The notes under the pieces were generated by a model. It was not told the origin of the DNA and did not search any database. It was given only the letters and a program-made list of their open reading frames with translations. A stretch of DNA of 64,000 bases from positions 1,240,001 through 1,304,000 of the forward strand of contig CP073750.1 of the NCBI GenBank assembly GCA_024398135.1, read 5' to 3'. A program made the translations under genes and the position numbers. Source of the stretch: a bacterium SCSIO 12643 (GTDB lineage: Bacteria; Bacteroidota; Bacteroidia; Flavobacteriales_G; Salibacteraceae). Below are positions 54,935 through 63,140 of the stretch, one piece after another; position 1 is the first letter of the stretch, and the number at the start of each line of letters is the position of its first letter.

Positions 54935-56728
54935 ATGGGGCAGTTAAAATCATCAAACATACTCGATACATTTGTATACCCACTGATTATTTCAGTTGTA
55001 TTCCTATTCATCTATGCTTTCATATTTGATATGAAATTAGATACGAATGGAGATAATTACAATTACCTCAACTATGCAACTTCAATACTAGATGGGCATG
55101 GTTACTCTTCACCTTATAATTCCAACTATTCCCCAACCAACTGGTATCCTCCAGGATACTCTTCACTTTTAGCGATTACTATGGTTTTCTTTGGTGAAAA
55201 TATTCCATTACTTAAAGTTCTTAATGGGGTACTTTACTTAGTGGGCTTAATTCTGTTTTATATCATTATCAAAAAAAGTACAAATGACTCTATTTTAGCT
55301 TTTTCAATCACTCTATTACTCACATTTAATCCTGGGTTGCTACGATTTTCAACGATTTTAATGTCCGAAATCCCATTTCTATTCTTTACGATGTTCACTG
55401 TTTATCTTGTAATCCATTTTGATGAAAACAACTTGCAATGGAGATCCCCATACTTTCTAGGGATAATTATCAGTGCAATCACGACATATTATTTCCGTAC
55501 AGCTGGAATTTCATTACTTGTAAGTATTTGCATTCACTGGGCAATTCAGAAAAAATGGAAACAAATAGGTCTATATATTACTGGGTTATTTATTCTTTAC
55601 CTTCCCTGGATTATTCGCAATTCTATTCATGGCATTAAAGGACGTTATATGGGGTCCATTATGGCCGTAAATCCATGGAGACCTGAAGAAGGTAACATCG
55701 GTTCAATTTCTGAATTTGTATCCAAAATGAAAACCAACCTTTTTGATACTGTTCTTAAAGGTTTTCCTGAAACATTATTCAACTTCTATCCCTTTAAAGA
55801 TTTATCTACAGAAAGTATGATTGTAATTGGAGGGCTCACGCTTCTCATCATCTTATTTGGAATTTGGAAACTTCAAAAAATCAATTATCTCCTTTTATTT
55901 CTGATTTTAGGTAACATCGGAATTTTTATGATTTGGCATGGAGGCAATGGTATTAGATATGTTTGGACCATTACTCCATTTTTAGCTTTGGGCTTCTTTA
56001 ACGGACTCATTCAACCTCTTAAACTTCTATTCACATTTAAAAATCAAAAAGTCTATTCCTATTTCTCTCTCTTGATTTTATTATTATTTATCCCTTACAA
56101 GCCACAACTTCAGGCTTATCATCAAAACGCACAGAAAAAGGGAAGTCCTGCATATCAAAACTATTTTAAAATCGCCAAAGAAATCAAACATATGGAAGGT
56201 CAGGATGTTACGGTTACTTCCAGAAAACCAGGAATGTTTCATTTCTATTCTGATGTATTTGTAAACAATTACAAATACACTTTAGACATTGAAGAACAGA
56301 TTGACTTTCTAAAGAAATCGGGCACCGATTATGTGGTTTTAGAACAGTTAGGTTATTCCAGTACTAACAGATATTTATATCCAGCAGTTCAGCGCTATCC
56401 TAATAAATTCAAAATAATCAAACACATTAAGAATCCCGACACCTATCTACTTAAATTCTCTCCTGACCTTGGGTACACCGGTGAATGGGAAAATAATGAA
56501 CGCTCAGGATATGGTACTTTTGTTTGGGAAAACGGGATGACATTTGCAGGGAATTGGAAAAACAATGTGCGTAATGGTAAAGGGACTTTATACTTTTCTG
56601 ATGGTCGTCAACTGGAAGGTTCCTGGGAAAATGATAAATTACATGGGCCAGCCATTATAAAATCTAAAGAAGGAACTATCATAGAAAGATGTGAATACCA
56701 ACACAATAAGAAAATTAAAATCTATTAA
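54935..56728 (+). CDS. GT-C-like glycosyltransferase fused to C-terminal MORN repeats
   Basis: A 597-residue protein. The first 390 residues have about 10-11 helices in ArnT/PMT-like order; the first loop has MKLDTNGDNYNYLNY, with Asp residues at the catalytic position of the GT-C fold. A soluble domain (about 390-510) follows. From residue 512 to 585 there are three MORN-like repeats: YTGEWENNERSGYGTFVW, FAGNWKNNVRNGKGTLYF and LEGSWENDKLHGPAII. MORN repeats bind lipids or proteins, and this fusion to a glycosyltransferase is unusual. It is 10 bases behind the GT2 gene, which may supply its lipid-linked donor. Confidence 0.8.
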   Translation: MGQLKSSNILDTFVYPLIISVVFLFIYAFIFDMKLDTNGDNYNYLNYATSILDGHGYSSPYNSNYSPTNWYPPGYSSLLAITMVFFGENIPLLKVLNGVLYLVGLILFYIIIKKSTNDSILAFSITLLLTFNPGLLRFSTILMSEIPFLFFTMFTVYLVIHFDENNLQWRSPYFLGIIISAITTYYFRTAGISLLVSICIHWAIQKKWKQIGLYITGLFILYLPWIIRNSIHGIKGRYMGSIMAVNPWRPEEGNIGSISEFVSKMKTNLFDTVLKGFPETLFNFYPFKDLSTESMIVIGGLTLLIILFGIWKLQKINYLLLFLILGNIGIFMIWHGGNGIRYVWTITPFLALGFFNGLIQPLKLLFTFKNQKVYSYFSLLILLLFIPYKPQLQAYHQNAQKKGSPAYQNYFKIAKEIKHMEGQDVTVTSRKPGMFHFYSDVFVNNYKYTLDIEEQIDFLKKSGTDYVVLEQLGYSSTNRYLYPAVQRYPNKFKIIKHIKNPDTYLLKFSPDLGYTGEWENNERSGYGTFVWENGMTFAGNWKNNVRNGKGTLYFSDGRQLEGSWENDKLHGPAIIKSKEGTIIERCEYQHNKKIKIY

Positions 56729-56832: not shown

Positions 56833-58797
56833 ATGAAAAAAATTAACAAATTAATTCTTGCGATCTTTGCGCTACTATCGGTGCAAATGGTTCAAGCCCA
56901 GTGTGACGCTTCGTTCACACATACAGGAACTGACCCTACGTTTAGTTTCTCGCCTAACACGACCCCTTCAATCAGTTCTGCTGCCTGGTGGAATTTTGGT
57001 GATGGGAATATTAGCTATACCATCAGTCCTTCACATACCTATGCTGCAAATGGAAGTTATATGGTTACATTTAATGTAATCGATTCTGCTTCAAACTGTA
57101 GTGATATCGATACCCTTTGGATCAATGTAACCAACGCAGCACCCGTTACTTGTAGTGCGGCATTTACTATTTCTGGAACATCTCCAACTTTCACGTTCAA
57201 CCCAACAGGTACTCCAACTGCTCCAGCAGGATATTATTCTTATGTATGGGATTTTGGTGATGGAAACGTGAGCTACGCAAATAATCCAACGCATACATAC
57301 ACCGCAAATGGAACATACAATGTAACTTGTATTTTCTATGATAGTATTTGGTGTGCTGATACTGTAACCAATATAGTAACGGTGACTGGTATCTCAACAC
57401 CTTCATGTGATGCTTCATTCACTGTAATTGATTCTAACGGAACTTTTATTTTCATTCCTAGCGCACCATTCCCAGGAGCAGTTTACTCATGGATTTTAAG
57501 TGATGGTAGTGTATATGGAGTACAAAACCCGGTTGTTAATTTAACTACTCCTGGCAATTACGTAATGTGTTTAACTATTTCCGATCCTTCATCAGGTTGT
57601 TCAGATACTTTCTGTGACACAGTAGTAGTTAATCCAGCAGTTTGTGATGCTTCATTTACAGTATCAAATATGGACCCTTCTTATACATTTACTCCGAACA
57701 CGGTGCCTTCAGTTTCTAGTGGTTACTTCTGGGATTTTGGTGATGGAAATACTTCTACTCTATTAAATCCAACACACACTTATGCTGCAAATGGAACTTA
57801 CAACGTTACATTTACTGTAATTGATACCTTAAACTGGTGTGGTGATTCTTCGGTTACATCAATAACTGTAACCAACATTGTTCCTACTCCAACTGTGGGA
57901 CAAATCACAGGTATTGTTGCAATGGGATTACAAGGTGCTGATGCTGGGGTAGTATTCTTAATTACATATGATTCCGCTGCAGGAACTTTAACAATGGTCG
58001 ATACTACTCAAATCGATTCTTTCGGAATGTATGCATTCTATAACGTACCTTACGGAACATATTTAGTTAAAGCTGCCCTTAGTCCAGCTTCTATTAACTA
58101 TACAAATTTCCTACCTACATATTATGCTACCTCAGTATGGGGAGGAGAATTACTATGGAACAATGCTACTGATGTAGTTCTTAACACCCCTTACCTAAAC
58201 AACGTAAACTTCAATCTGGTACCAGGTTCAAACCCTGGAGGACCAGGATTTGTTGGTGGTTTAGTAAGTCAAGGGGCAAACAAAACCGGAGATCCAATGT
58301 CTGATATCCAGATCATGATTTTAGATCAGAACGGTGATGCAGTAGCGTACGAGTACAGTGATAACACCGGATCATTTAATATTCCTGATTTACCTTACGG
58401 TACTTACACCGTTTATCCTGAAGTTCATGGTCGTGTAACTACTTCTGTTGATGTGGTTTTATCTGCAGCTCATCCAGGAACAAATCAAATTAGAATTGAA
58501 GTAAACAGTACAACTGTTGAAGCTTCTATTGCTACTGGAATTAATGATTTACCACAATTTGCTAATATCAGATTATTCCCAAATCCGGTAAAAGAAATTC
58601 TTAACGTGGATTTAGGTTCTGAATTAAGTGGAAAAACTACGCTTCAAATATTAGATTTAACTGGTAAAGTTATTTCGACTACTAACGTTTCTTCAACTGG
58701 TGTAATGACAGTTAATACTTCTGAGTTAAACACAGGAGTTTATATCTTATCTGTTGAAAATAACGGTAATAAAGCAATATATAAGTTTGTAAAATAA
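56833..58797 (+). CDS. secreted PKD-repeat surface protein with T9SS sorting domain
   Basis: A 654-residue exported protein. The signal ends VQMVQAQ (about residue 22). Four PKD-like repeats follow (about 23-110, 112-190, 190-270, 270-350), three of them with WxFGDGN and HTYAANGTYNVTF patterns and paired Cys. Then two carboxypeptidase/SpaA-like beta domains (about 355-555: GSFNIPDLPYGTYTVYPE) and a type A T9SS sorting domain (from IRLFPNPVKEILNV to YKFVK). It is expected at the cell surface as an adhesin or matrix protein. A terminator follows. Confidence 0.93.
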   Translation: MKKINKLILAIFALLSVQMVQAQCDASFTHTGTDPTFSFSPNTTPSISSAAWWNFGDGNISYTISPSHTYAANGSYMVTFNVIDSASNCSDIDTLWINVTNAAPVTCSAAFTISGTSPTFTFNPTGTPTAPAGYYSYVWDFGDGNVSYANNPTHTYTANGTYNVTCIFYDSIWCADTVTNIVTVTGISTPSCDASFTVIDSNGTFIFIPSAPFPGAVYSWILSDGSVYGVQNPVVNLTTPGNYVMCLTISDPSSGCSDTFCDTVVVNPAVCDASFTVSNMDPSYTFTPNTVPSVSSGYFWDFGDGNTSTLLNPTHTYAANGTYNVTFTVIDTLNWCGDSSVTSITVTNIVPTPTVGQITGIVAMGLQGADAGVVFLITYDSAAGTLTMVDTTQIDSFGMYAFYNVPYGTYLVKAALSPASINYTNFLPTYYATSVWGGELLWNNATDVVLNTPYLNNVNFNLVPGSNPGGPGFVGGLVSQGANKTGDPMSDIQIMILDQNGDAVAYEYSDNTGSFNIPDLPYGTYTVYPEVHGRVTTSVDVVLSAAHPGTNQIRIEVNSTTVEASIATGINDLPQFANIRLFPNPVKEILNVDLGSELSGKTTLQILDLTGKVISTTNVSSTGVMTVNTSELNTGVYILSVENNGNKAIYKFVK

Positions 58798-58820
58798 TAT
58801 CTAAATATCTCAAAATTAAT

Positions 58821-58848
58821 CTCGGTGTGGGCAAATTCCCGCACCGGG
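58821..58848 (+). terminator. terminator after the PKD protein gene
   Basis: Stem CGGTGTGGG and CCCGCACCG (one G-U pair) with a six-base loop, followed by a T-rich run. It lies just before the sigma-factor ATG at 58861, so it may also affect the sigma leader. Confidence 0.7.
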
Positions 58849-58860
58849 ATATTTTACTTT

Positions 58861-59430
58861 ATGGCGGTTGATCAAAGACTTATTCAACAGTGCATTAAAG
58901 GTAAGGAAAAGGCTTATTATGAACTATATAAGCTTTGTTTTTCAGACCTAATGGCTGTCTGTGTAAGATATTTCCGCAATAAAGAAGAAGCTGCACCAGT
59001 ATTAAACAAGGCTTTTTTAAGAATTACGCAGAATTTAGATAAGTATAAATCTGACGTTCCCTGGGATCGTTGGATTAAACGAATAATGATTAATACGATC
59101 ATTAATGAATATAAAAGTCAAAAAAGAAATAAAGATTTTTTCGTTCCAACTAGCTTTGAAAGCGGATCTTTAGAATTTGATAATTATTCATTAAATGAAA
59201 TCAAAGAACGCATTGATCTCGAACACATAAAATCTTTTATTCATGAGTTGCCCGCAACTCAGAAAGAAGTTTTTAACCTTTATGCGATAGATGGTTATAC
59301 GCATAAAGAAATAGCTGAAATGTTGGAGATTCCTTTGGGGACCTCAAAATGGTTACTTGCCGAGGCAAGAAAAAGACTTAAAACTATGGTAACAAAGTCT
59401 TTAAATATTAATACTGCAATCGCGATATGA
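58861..59430 (+). CDS. ECF-type RNA polymerase sigma factor
   Basis: A 189-residue sigma-70-family factor with region 2 (DLMAVCVRYFRNKEEAAPVLN and PWDRWIKRIMINTIINEYKS) and region 4 (LPATQKEVFNLYAIDGYTHKEIAEMLEIPLGT). ATG at 58861 is used; a GTG at 58825 lies inside the preceding terminator. It overlaps the next gene by four bases (ATGA), the usual arrangement of a sigma factor and its cognate anti-sigma factor. Confidence 0.93.
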   Translation: MAVDQRLIQQCIKGKEKAYYELYKLCFSDLMAVCVRYFRNKEEAAPVLNKAFLRITQNLDKYKSDVPWDRWIKRIMINTIINEYKSQKRNKDFFVPTSFESGSLEFDNYSLNEIKERIDLEHIKSFIHELPATQKEVFNLYAIDGYTHKEIAEMLEIPLGTSKWLLAEARKRLKTMVTKSLNINTAIAI

Positions 59431-61070
59431 ATAACGGTGATCACAATATAGATAAGTTATTTAAAGATGCTTTTGAAAGTGAAGAGCATGACTTTAATGC
59501 AGCTTACTGGCAAGATGCTCAGCAAATGCTGAACACTGGTAAATCCACGCCTATTTTTACAAAACCATATATGGTGGTTAGTGCCTTATCTATTGTTATT
59601 TCATCTATTCTATTTTTTGCAGACTCAACACCTCAACAATTTATTCAAACTAAAAACCCCATTGCTGAAAATCAAACTATCAATTCAACTGAAAAACAGC
59701 GTATTTCCAATACAACATCTTCAAACACTGATTATTCTAAAAATATTCAAATAGGCACAGAACAAAATCAAACTCTTGATTCCAAAGCTTTAACTAATGA
59801 AGAATCAAAAACTAATTCCACACCTTCTTTAATAAAAAACGAACAAGAAGCTAATTCTAAATTAGAATCCCACCTTGTAAATAACACTACGGAAATCGCC
59901 ATATCTGAGCGTCCACGCAAAATAACAGCTCAGAATACTAAAACTGAATCAAAAGTTGCTAAAGGAGAACTGACTAAATCGAATATATCAACTTCTAATA
60001 TTGCTCAAACCGCTATTGTTTCTTCCAGTATCGGAACAAATAATGCGACTAACCAAAACCAATTAACGCTTCGCAAAACAAGCAATCATACAGTTATGTC
60101 AAATGATACGGAACAGAATGTATCTCAAGAACATACTGTGAATCAACCTCATCAAGACTTACAGTACAAAAAGACCATTCTCAATCATGACTTTAAAGAA
60201 CAAGCTTTAGGTTTTATGAATACAAAGTCGCTGGTTTTATCGAAACAGGATAATTCATTAGCTATTCCTTCTTCCGACTTCGAACCCTTAAAGTCAATTC
60301 ATCTACCACTTACATTAAGATTAAGTGTGGGTAATTACTGGAGCGAGTCATTTAATACCGCATCTAGCAACGTTCAAACTTATGGACAAAATAGAAATAT
60401 CGAATTTAGCGCAGAATATCTCTTCAGACCTAATTGGGGAATTCAGGTAGGTATTTCCTATAACAACATGGTGGAAGAACAAGCACACCGAGGTTTAGGT
60501 GTGATCAACAACTCATATTGGAACGAAGTGGATAATTCCTATTGGAAATATCAAGAACAACAAATAACGATAAATGATAGTACCTGGTGGTTAGGTGGCT
60601 GGTGGCACTATGCTCCGTATCAGGATACAGTTATAGACTCCACCTACATATCAAAACATGATCAGGTCTATGTTACTAAATACGATACAACTGCTAAAAA
60701 CTTTAAATCCGAGCAAAAAATCAAACTTATTGAAGTTCCAGTATTGATCTCTTACAATTTCAATATTGAAAGATGGACTTTCCAATTGGCATCAGGTATG
60801 TCATTTGGGTTCTATTCAAACTCTTCCGGACAAATTATTCGTCCAGGAGATCCGGTGCGATTGGAAAATTCGAGTTCTTCATTGTTTCATAATATCCAAT
60901 ACAACTACCTGCTTCAAACTGAACTAGGATATAATATTACAGATCAGTGGCAACTTACGGCAAGACCTCAGATGAAAATGAACCTGAACAGCATTTATAA
61001 AAACGAATCTGGTTTCCGACATCGTTATCTATTTTATGGTGTCAATGTTGGTGTTGCATACAGATTCTAG
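59427..61070 (+). CDS. predicted anti-sigma/outer-membrane beta-barrel fusion protein
   Basis: A 547-residue protein. Residues 1-45 are cytoplasmic-type and resemble the short N-terminal helix of Bacteroidota anti-sigma factors (DKLFKDAFESEEHDFNAAYW). One transmembrane helix follows at 47-65. Residues about 66-290 form a Ser/Thr/Asn/Gln-rich unstructured linker. The rest (about 295-547) is a PorT-like beta-barrel with alternating aromatic strands (LPLTLRLSVGNYWSESF, LTARPQMKMNL) ending in FYGVNVGVAYRF, an aromatic outer-membrane end. If right, one chain spans both membranes and could carry a signal directly to the sigma factor encoded just upstream. Confidence 0.75.
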   Translation: MNNGDHNIDKLFKDAFESEEHDFNAAYWQDAQQMLNTGKSTPIFTKPYMVVSALSIVISSILFFADSTPQQFIQTKNPIAENQTINSTEKQRISNTTSSNTDYSKNIQIGTEQNQTLDSKALTNEESKTNSTPSLIKNEQEANSKLESHLVNNTTEIAISERPRKITAQNTKTESKVAKGELTKSNISTSNIAQTAIVSSSIGTNNATNQNQLTLRKTSNHTVMSNDTEQNVSQEHTVNQPHQDLQYKKTILNHDFKEQALGFMNTKSLVLSKQDNSLAIPSSDFEPLKSIHLPLTLRLSVGNYWSESFNTASSNVQTYGQNRNIEFSAEYLFRPNWGIQVGISYNNMVEEQAHRGLGVINNSYWNEVDNSYWKYQEQQITINDSTWWLGGWWHYAPYQDTVIDSTYISKHDQVYVTKYDTTAKNFKSEQKIKLIEVPVLISYNFNIERWTFQLASGMSFGFYSNSSGQIIRPGDPVRLENSSSSLFHNIQYNYLLQTELGYNITDQWQLTARPQMKMNLNSIYKNESGFRHRYLFYGVNVGVAYRF

Positions 61071-61247: not shown

Positions 61248-63140
61248 ATGTTAAAAAAGGTTTTCATATTACTTCTTTTCATTGGATCATTTTCTCCTAT
61301 CTATACTCAAGCATATTTATCCGAATTAAAGACAAACGATGATTTTGAAACGTTAAGCGGCTTACCATTATCCAATAAGTATGGTCAACTTTCAGCTATA
61401 AAAGTGGTTGTCGACTTAAAAACTGATAAGATTTATTATTTAAATGCCTCAGATTATAAATTTCATCATGAATTTTGCGAGCAGGTTTTAAGAAATAATG
61501 TGACCCTTTCCTATTTCAATGAAGTGAATTATGAAAACTCTTCTCAACGCCAATACTTGCTTGGGAACCTCAACCTTATCGAGACTTCGGGCAAGTATTT
61601 TTTAGAACTTTCGCCAACGGATTTGATGTCTGAAAAACTCATCTATCAATTCTTCAATAAGGTTCAAAATTCATTTTATAATTCAAAAAAATTACTGTTT
61701 CTGATCAACAGTAACAGATTAAACGAAATCTCGGATTCACTAGCATTACAAATTCCCATTTTACACGCTTCGGAGATTTATCAGGATCTCGATTACCAGG
61801 CCATTGGCAAAGGTGAATCAGACGGATATTTAAAAATCATTGATGATTTGGAGACATGTGTAAATCAGTTACAACCCACTGATATTATTGTCATCAATCA
61901 AACACCTCTGTTTTTGCCTCAGGTTGCTGGCGTAATTGTTACCAAGTTTCAGACTCCTTTAAGTCACTTGAGTATTCTGGGGCAAAATAGAGATATTCCG
62001 ATCATGGCCTACACAAATGCTTTTAGGGATCATCATCTACAACGATTAAACAACAGCCCTGTTCATCTTAAAGTGGAAAGTGATACTTTTTATCTTCGAC
62101 AAATTGAAGAAGTGATTCCCAAAACCTCAGCCTCCAAAAAAATCAAATTAAAATATGATCTGGACGTAGACTCTTTAATCAGCATTAAAGATCTCAAAAG
62201 AAAATCTTCAAAATATGTGGGTAACAAAGCACAAAACTTTAGAGAACTCTATAAACTTTCTTTAAAGAACAATTTCAAAGTTCCAGAATCTGCTTTTGCA
62301 ATCCCATTCTTTTACTACCATCAGCATCTGATAGAAAATAAGATCGACACACGAATTGAACACTTCTTAACCCATTATAAAAGTTTAGAACCGGATTCCA
62401 TTCAATTCTATCTTAAACAGATCAGAAGAGAGATCAAAAACACTCCTGTTAATGATCAACTTTTAAAAGATACGGAAAACATGATTTTAGCATTAGGTAC
62501 ATACAAGCGAATGAGATTTCGATCTTCTACCAATGCCGAAGATGCTAAAGGTTTTTCAGGAGCCGGACTTTATTCTTCTAAAACGGGAATTCTATATGAC
62601 GACCAAAAAACGATTGATCGGGCCATTAAAAAGGTATGGGCAAGTTTATGGAATTATGAAGCCTTTATGGAACGTGAGTTTTTTTCAGTCGATCATCGAC
62701 AAGCGTATATGGGAATTCTGGTTCATCGTTCCTTTCCTTCAGAAGTTGTAAATGGCGTTGCCATTACTAAAAATCTATATCGATATGGTTATTTAGGGTT
62801 TACGGTAAATGCACAACTGGGAAATGAGAATGTCGTTCAACCTTCTCCTGGTGTGATTTGTGATCAGTTCATCTGCTATCCAAATACGCTTCACAACATG
62901 TATGATGAACATCATACGATTGAAATCATCACTACTTCAAGTTTAAATAATGGTGAGCTGGTCATGACTCCAGAAGAAATTTACAATTTGGCGTATCAGC
63001 TGCACGTCATCAAAAAACACTTCTTTTATACGCCATATTCCGGTGGTGAATACGCCCTTTTTGCAATGGATGTAGAATTTAAAATAGATGGTGAAAACCG
63101 TACTTTATACATCAAACAAGCCCGTCCGTTTAATGATTAG
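61248..63140 (+). CDS. exported dikinase-like protein (phosphohistidine domain plus PPDK-type ATP-grasp)
   Basis: A 630-residue protein with a Sec-type signal (MLKKVFILLLFIGSFSPIYT). Residues about 23-200 are of unknown fold. Residues about 210-265 are a PEP-utilizing/phosphohistidine mobile domain with the key His240 in TPLSHLSIL. From 320 to the end lies a PPDK_N-type ATP-grasp domain: VGNKAQNFREL (324-334), RSSTNAEDAKGFSGAG (425-440), KKVWASLWN, SEVVNGVAITKN and the terminal LYIKQARPF. The TIM barrel of PEP synthase is absent. The order His domain then ATP-grasp is the reverse of PEP synthase but is that of glucan water dikinases. Export of such an enzyme is unexpected, and the substrate is unknown. 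Confidence 0.8.
   Translation: MLKKVFILLLFIGSFSPIYTQAYLSELKTNDDFETLSGLPLSNKYGQLSAIKVVVDLKTDKIYYLNASDYKFHHEFCEQVLRNNVTLSYFNEVNYENSSQRQYLLGNLNLIETSGKYFLELSPTDLMSEKLIYQFFNKVQNSFYNSKKLLFLINSNRLNEISDSLALQIPILHASEIYQDLDYQAIGKGESDGYLKIIDDLETCVNQLQPTDIIVINQTPLFLPQVAGVIVTKFQTPLSHLSILGQNRDIPIMAYTNAFRDHHLQRLNNSPVHLKVESDTFYLRQIEEVIPKTSASKKIKLKYDLDVDSLISIKDLKRKSSKYVGNKAQNFRELYKLSLKNNFKVPESAFAIPFFYYHQHLIENKIDTRIEHFLTHYKSLEPDSIQFYLKQIRREIKNTPVNDQLLKDTENMILALGTYKRMRFRSSTNAEDAKGFSGAGLYSSKTGILYDDQKTIDRAIKKVWASLWNYEAFMEREFFSVDHRQAYMGILVHRSFPSEVVNGVAITKNLYRYGYLGFTVNAQLGNENVVQPSPGVICDQFICYPNTLHNMYDEHHTIEIITTSSLNNGELVMTPEEIYNLAYQLHVIKKHFFYTPYSGGEYALFAMDVEFKIDGENRTLYIKQARPFND

Follow-up and report, generated by a model that had tools for sequence, protein, structure and literature searches.

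How could the state of the outer membrane be reported to a cytoplasmic sigma factor by the product of a single neighboring gene? The question is raised by a gene pair of the Salibacteraceae bacterium SCSIO 12643, in which an earlier note, made from the sequence alone, placed an ECF sigma gene in 4-base overlap with a gene for a protein running in one chain from the cytoplasm to an outer-membrane barrel. We examined this pair within a 64,000-nucleotide stretch of contig CP073750.1 (the window; positions 1,240,001 to 1,304,000) and compared it with relatives in other genomes. Features of the locus are collected in Table 1; residue numbers refer to the second protein, here called the receptor, and L, G, and C numbers are our handles for loci, genomes, and contigs.

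Table 1. Features of the sigma-receptor pair and its immediate neighbors, in window coordinates.
Feature	Position	Strand	Basis
Upstream neighbor, PKD-repeat protein with T9SS type A C-terminal domain	56833..58797	+	Pfam
Hairpin, 13-bp stem, ending ~10 nt before the sigma ATG	58819..58850	+	z −5.3
ECF sigma factor, 189 aa	58861..59430	+	ORF, Pfam and NCBIfam domains, orthologs
ATGA start/stop overlap, both genes	59427..59430	.	Also in related pairs
Probable Dma/Reo-type anti-sigma receptor, 547 aa	59427..61070	+	ORF, relatives, model
Residues 1-46, putative sigma-binding N-domain (helices 8-17, 25-36)	59427..59564	+	Alignment A5, model
Residues 47-65, predicted inner-membrane helix	59565..59621	+	Charge pattern, model
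Residues 66-290, predicted mostly disordered tether, 47% S/T/N/Q	59622..60296	+	Model, composition
Residues 291-547, predicted eight-stranded outer-membrane barrel, C-terminal YRF	60297..61067	+	Model, structure comparison
Residues 355-425, long W/Y-rich low-confidence loop between strands 3 and 4	60489..60701	+	Model, composition
Downstream neighbor, PPDK_N (ATP-grasp-like) protein with signal-peptide-like hydrophobic N-terminus	61248..63140	+	Pfam

A mechanical list of open reading frames (ORFs) begins the first gene at GTG 58825. Because that codon lies inside the predicted hairpin and ATG 58861 aligns with the start codons of the two nearest orthologs, we took ATG 58861 as the start; the stop is at 59430. 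Both sigma regions of the product pass their Pfam cutoffs (region 2, Sigma70_r2, 3e-7; region 4, Sigma70_r4_2, 3.6e-13), NCBIfam model TIGR02937 scores 76.4 bits against a cutoff of 42.9, and the class assigned is sigma70-ECF. A PDB sequence search with the protein matched ECF sigmas of other groups. The ECF sigma gene of the earlier note is thus confirmed, as is its 4-base overlap with the next gene, an ATGA at positions 59427 to 59430. Within the same genome the sigma profile matched 12 sequences, this sigma included, a number that makes cognate specificity uncertain; sigma and receptor are putatively a cognate pair. Two of the matches contain an internal stop codon and are possible pseudogenes (C1:3228128-3228553 and C1:4045801-4046283).

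The hairpin that precedes the sigma gene recurs at the same position, with a different sequence, in both of two sister genomes (z = −2.8 and −4.2), and it may be a terminator of the upstream transcript that limits read-through into the sigma gene, or an attenuator. By eye, both sister genomes also carry a similar PKD/T9SS gene upstream of the pair and a similar PPDK_N gene downstream of it. An exported ATP-using domain, as the PPDK_N neighbor (61248-63140) would have, would be odd. The product of positions 54935 to 56728 resembles membrane mannosyltransferases (PF02366) and carries MORN repeats (PF02493) at its C-terminus, a combination that looks unusual.

The receptor gene runs from ATG 59427 to a stop at 61070. 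An AlphaFold model of its product, built from a 54-sequence alignment (mean pLDDT, 60.6), contains three helices (residues 8-17, 25-36, and 47-65) followed by a long stretch of low confidence and a barrel. By block means, the 92 residues with pLDDT values of 90 or more lie in the barrel, and confidence in the N-domain is moderate (55 to 78 for 10-residue blocks across residues 1 to 40). The Ser/Thr/Asn-rich linker of roughly 225 residues described previously was recovered as residues 66 to 290 (225 residues, 47% S/T/N/Q, zero Cys), with pLDDT below 50 for most of residues 66 to 265; a rough polymer estimate gives this tether a contour length of ~81 nm and a relaxed span of ~14 nm. The C-terminal outer-membrane-type barrel also stands: eight long strands are modeled within residues 295 to 546, together with three short loop strands, and the fold compares closely with solved eight-stranded barrels (NspA, Z = 16.2, rmsd 3.0, 154 residues aligned; OmpA 1bxw, Z = 15.7). 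Outer-membrane barrels usually have short periplasmic turns. Here the three turns facing the incoming tether measure 2 to 4 residues each, and the loops at the opposite end measure 8, 71, 21, and 15 residues, Trp and Tyr being abundant in the 71-residue loop. If the barrel's N end faces the periplasm, this loop (residues 355-425) would be extracellular in the model and a candidate sensor surface.

Pfam matches to the receptor at E values up to 1 were barrel families only, with PF13568 just missing its cutoff (26.3 versus 27 bits); among the 54 aligned receptors, PF13568 was matched by 39 and PF13505 by 25 (E up to 0.01), and barrel identity is low beyond the genus. The narrow miss and the low identity count against the assignment made below. 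A PDB sequence search with the receptor profile returned no barrel and no anti-sigma among its matches. Its best rows, sodium channels, were set aside, having matched over the low-complexity stretch only.

To determine how well the pair is conserved, we searched further genomes with each of its proteins. Receptor matches were found in 24 of 60 genomes, our own included. From 20 loci, one of them the second pair of this genome, 22 receptor-matching ORFs were taken; 19 have an ECF sigma gene at most 10 bp upstream (the script trimmed the ORF start in three of these), and 14 share the 4-bp overlap (a gap of −4). At L041 and at the second ORF of L050 the sigma gene lies at a distance of 70 and 557 bp, respectively, and no sigma gene was found in locus L040. 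A first contig scan, with the receptor as a single sequence, confirmed no relative. The second used the sigma alignment, and its best-scoring 80 loci were kept, 42 of them from Flavobacteriales or Saprospiraceae by title and our own count. In 75 of these 80 loci the sigma gene is followed by an ORF of 120 aa or more (67 complete, 8 cut), a proportion that is not an unbiased rate because the sigma profile was built from such pairs; the gap is again −4 in 18 of the 75. Four of the five other loci end at contig ends, and L085 is without an ORF of 120 aa. The relatives retain both the adjacency of sigma and receptor genes and the order of N-domain, transmembrane (TM) helix, linker, and C-terminal part, which suggests that the arrangement reflects more than chance.

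The N-domain can be followed apart from the rest of the protein. Its profile was made from alignment A5 (46 sequences, about the first 70 residues), in which W28 is invariant and D9 is present in at least 90%, and it detects the domain in 73 of the 75 ORFs downstream of profile-matched sigmas. Run without the sigma, the profile found matches in 50 of 198 genomes of the phylum, our own included. We retrieved 29 loci from other genomes, the top-scoring portion of a longer list, and in 28 of them an ECF sigma gene precedes the N-domain protein, whether or not that protein has a barrel; L193 has no sigma match in its locus. Twelve of the 29 proteins are only 225 to 283 aa long, with a TM segment and an adjacent sigma (L170, L172, L173, L175, L176, L180, L182, L184, L187, L188, L192, and L194), and six of the twelve, when scanned, had no Pfam match at E values up to 0.01. 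Our genome holds three N-domain proteins at E < 0.001, namely, the window receptor, a second one of barrel type (L031/L168; PF13568, 53.4 bits), and a protein ending in a T9SS type B domain. Weaker matches are a reading frame interrupted by a stop codon (E = 0.013) and a protein that adjoins a sigma gene and also ends in a T9SS type B sorting domain (E = 0.04). The two sorting domains score 35.8 and 38.8 bits against a cutoff of 35. Two to four tandem copies of ~38 residues each precede the TM helix in 7 of 75 proteins (L077, L084, L078, L079, L100, L083, and L101; i-E < 0.01), and in an eighth, weaker case (L094) the second copy scores 0.031. These tandem copies suggest an independent binding module. 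The model of a tandem-copy protein was set aside at a mean pLDDT of 46. The profile also gave weak matches in their own genomes to L310 (E = 0.013) and L315 (E = 0.09), both of them FecR-like when inspected by eye; judged by sequence, the N-domain may thus be a remote relative of the FecR pre-TM region and possibly not exclusive to sigma-adjacent receptors.

The orientation of the chain depends on the nature of helix 47-65. Among 70 relatives having an early TM-like segment, charge is more positive before the segment than after it in 61, a signal-peptidase-like A-x-A motif lies near its end in 5, and a Trp falls within residues 16 to 40 in 65. The charge pattern and the scarcity of A-x-A argue against a cleaved signal peptide, the outcome that the earlier note had named as telling against its reading; the model and the charge pattern likewise uphold its single helix after a short N-terminus. 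Were the helix instead a late signal peptide, the barrel would be an ordinary free outer-membrane protein and the N-domain a vestigial leader. The ordinary barrel fold would suit that explanation, and helices this long can be signal anchors, but it would have to account for an acidic leader 46 residues long in which a motif is conserved and W28 invariant, for the A-x-A motif in just 5 of 70 relatives, and for tandem N-domains, which are unlike a leader. We regard it as the least probable of the explanations considered here, with hardly any likelihood. The model, the charge pattern, and the conserved gene pairing together support the earlier note in part, namely, in its architecture of one chain that runs N-in/C-out through the envelope to an outer-membrane barrel and has an ECF sigma as its partner.

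Sequence coupling between the paired proteins was analyzed in two ways. For sigma and N-domain, 133 aligned pairs of 150 unique ones were used (17 dropped for gaps), and the top couplings exceed those of every re-pairing, 18 made within clusters and 8 at random. N-domain and barrel were then compared over 36 columns each in 94 barrel-type pairs, of which 8 were removed because of gaps, leaving 86. Both sets of columns exceed all 14 cluster shuffles, with top-30 z values of 10.3 (N-domain) and 12.3 (barrel). When near relatives were swapped, 7 of 14 swaps reached the highest single coupling of the N-domain and 3 of 14 that of the barrel, and the top-30 mean was reached in 0 of 14 and 1 of 14, respectively (z = 4.1 and 2.0). 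The slight edge thus belongs to the N-domain in near-relative swaps and to the barrel in cluster shuffles. Since barrel columns couple to the sigma much as N-domain columns do, shared descent suffices to explain the signal, and we claim no contact from it. Alternatively, the receptor could be a structural outer-membrane tether, merely cotranscribed with the sigma and not an anti-sigma, a role with which the coupling results would be compatible. Such a role is nevertheless very unlikely, given that the sigma-free N-domain profile leads to loci adjoining ECF sigmas in 28 of the 29 best-scoring cases, barrel or not, and that published proteins of the same layout act as anti-sigmas in the accessible parts of their reports (PMC13088901, PMC9308784).

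A second class of proteins shares the N-terminal half of this layout. In it, a similar N-domain and TM helix lead into a low-complexity stretch, after which come a PKD domain and a T9SS type B sorting domain. Two such pairs lie in our genome (G000:C1:2574243-2576055, L203 and L241; C1:3354237-3355920, L204 and L211), and relatives were collected as L212 to L220, L242 to L260, L264, L267, L268, and L270. Full-length matches were found in 10 of 60 genomes in one search and in at least 29 of 60 in the other, our own included in each. An ECF sigma gene lies upstream in all 34 loci (2 of them our own), with gaps of −17 to +8 and one of +75; the N-domain profile detects 30 of the 34 proteins at E values up to 0.1, and TIGR04131 was matched in 27 of 28 scanned (E up to 0.01). 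This class is possibly a monitor of type IX secretion. PorA, a protein with a T9SS C-terminal domain, affects PorXY-SigP signaling in a different arrangement, according to the accessible text of one study (PMC7712824). No T9SS-linked anti-sigma was found in the open-access literature searched, and this class and the tandem N-domains are possibly more novel than the window pair itself.

The Dma proteins of Bacteroides thetaiotaomicron are reportedly treated in a 2024 PNAS paper by Pardue. The accessible portion of a 2026 report describes Dma1 to Dma3 of that species as one-chain anti-sigmas spanning both membranes, Dma2 comprising an anti-sigma domain, a TM helix, a disordered tether, and a barrel; the dma2 phenotype requires the sigma Das2, encoded by das2 (PMC13088901). 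A Phocaeicola vulgatus anti-sigma (2022; now Reo) was predicted to span the periplasm and to end in a C-terminal barrel; in the sections available, its loss switches a protective regulon on, the toxin BcpT raises expression of the sigma gene 33-fold, and the response overlaps that to a BamA inhibitor (PMC9308784). Passages of two papers trace the first description of EcfO-Reo to B. fragilis (PMC9308784, PMC13114119), and Reo is there proposed to span all compartments and to be a likely sensor of outer-membrane stress (PMC13114119). The mutants presented in the available text show that the anti-sigma restrains its sigma (PMC13088901, PMC9308784). By these partial descriptions, the window receptor has in common with Dma an N-terminal anti-sigma domain (putative here), one TM helix, a disordered tether, and a C-terminal barrel, and with Reo the span from cytoplasm to outer membrane, the C-terminal barrel, and a position after the sigma gene; an adjoining ECF sigma gene is shared with Dma1 and Dma2. 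Dma hosts are gut Bacteroidales, whereas the window host probably belongs to the Flavobacteriales, and the PKD/T9SS and PPDK_N neighbors of the window pair are a difference from Reo. The novelty that the earlier note implied for a one-chain design does not hold, as the accessible text already presents this architecture in Dma1-3 and Reo. The pair is a further example of a published design, and we assign it to the Dma/Reo type beyond gut Bacteroidales, a likeness drawn from the descriptions and from relatives in NigD-bearing genomes rather than from the named sequences.

NigD had no match in the window's genome and was found in 6 of 198 genomes of a class-wide sample. The sigma and N-domain profiles were run on four NigD-bearing genomes of one family, three of which yielded five sigma-N-domain pairs (L308, L309, L312, L313, and L314), with genome-level N-domain E values of 1.7e-7, 3.1e-4, 0.0014, 0.0037, and 0.059. 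In all five proteins a TM-like segment falls within residues 45 to 80 and the C-terminus looks barrel-like; two of the five were scanned and matched OMP_b-brl, one below and one above the Pfam cutoff. Two pairs adjoin nigD divergently (G266:C16 and G301:C1). In the fourth genome (G383) the N-domain profile found no such pair; by eye, a sigma gene there is followed by a gene for a 436-aa protein with the same layout (L281). In the same genome a single ORF (L284, G383:C1, around 502863) joins an ECF sigma domain to a TM segment, a tether, and, by eye, a barrel-like end, a fusion that resembles Dma3 as far as the accessible description goes. The NigD-genome pairs would appear to be Dma/Reo orthologs.

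In the FecR/FecI/FecA system, outer-membrane signals reach an ECF sigma through an outer-membrane transporter and an anti-sigma that are separate proteins. The window pair would likewise link the outer membrane to an ECF sigma, but with the putative anti-sigma and the barrel in one chain instead of two proteins. An assignment to the FecR/FecA family was set aside: the Pfam matches of the receptor are limited to barrel families, its barrel is eight-stranded, and no TonB-dependent receptor was found among the four flanking genes scanned. Class I anti-sigma domains (ASDI) were reported in 2020 near only 6% of Bacteroidetes ECF genes, and ASDI proteins, like the window receptor, are encoded near an ECF gene in the portion of that study available (PMC7406223). 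Unlike them, the receptor has an N-domain of ~40 residues with two short helices and matches only barrel families in Pfam.

Taken together, these results make it likely that the two genes form a Dma/Reo-like sigma/anti-sigma switch, in which sequestration by residues 1 to 46, the signal, and the relay are the conjectural parts. The receptor would span the inner membrane with its N-terminus inside, the 46 residues in the cytoplasm would bind and hold this sigma, and the chain would cross the periplasm as a disordered tether to end in the predicted barrel. Disturbance of the barrel by outer-membrane damage, by failed barrel assembly, or by a ligand on the aromatic loop would cause the N-domain to free the sigma. 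As the relay, the exposed tether might be cut and the chain then cleaved within the membrane, or anchoring might be lost. We propose the proteolytic relay tentatively, judging its chances slightly short of even. Alternatively, a ligand or displacement of the barrel could pull on the tether of an intact chain and detach the N-domain mechanically, with no proteolysis, a route open to a single polypeptide with a predicted anchored barrel and an aromatic 71-residue loop that could bind a ligand. A 225-residue tether with a contour length of ~81 nm and a span of ~14 nm would, however, be slack and a poor transmitter. Because so floppy a tether poorly carries a conformational change, cutting of the tether or loss of anchoring is favored; direct pulling, ranked second, seems to us rather unlikely.

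More generally, N-domain and TM helix may form a Bacteroidota plug-in that joins a sigma-holding module to any outer-membrane or surface part, a proposal that we consider speculative and somewhat doubtful. A sigma held by a barrel-type protein would report on how the outer membrane is assembled, one held by a protein with a T9SS type B C-terminal domain would report on T9SS cargo uptake, and tandem copies could hold several sigmas. The present analysis carries the Dma/Reo design, studied in gut Bacteroidales, to a probable Flavobacteriales lineage and provides a compact sequence signature by which the putative sigma-holding module can be recognized. That module may fill part of the gap left by the 6% figure for ASDI, as given in the accessible text (PMC7406223). 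The wider N-domain module merits follow-up, above all the T9SS-linked class, whose members, if they work as proposed, would be direct reporters of type IX secretion.
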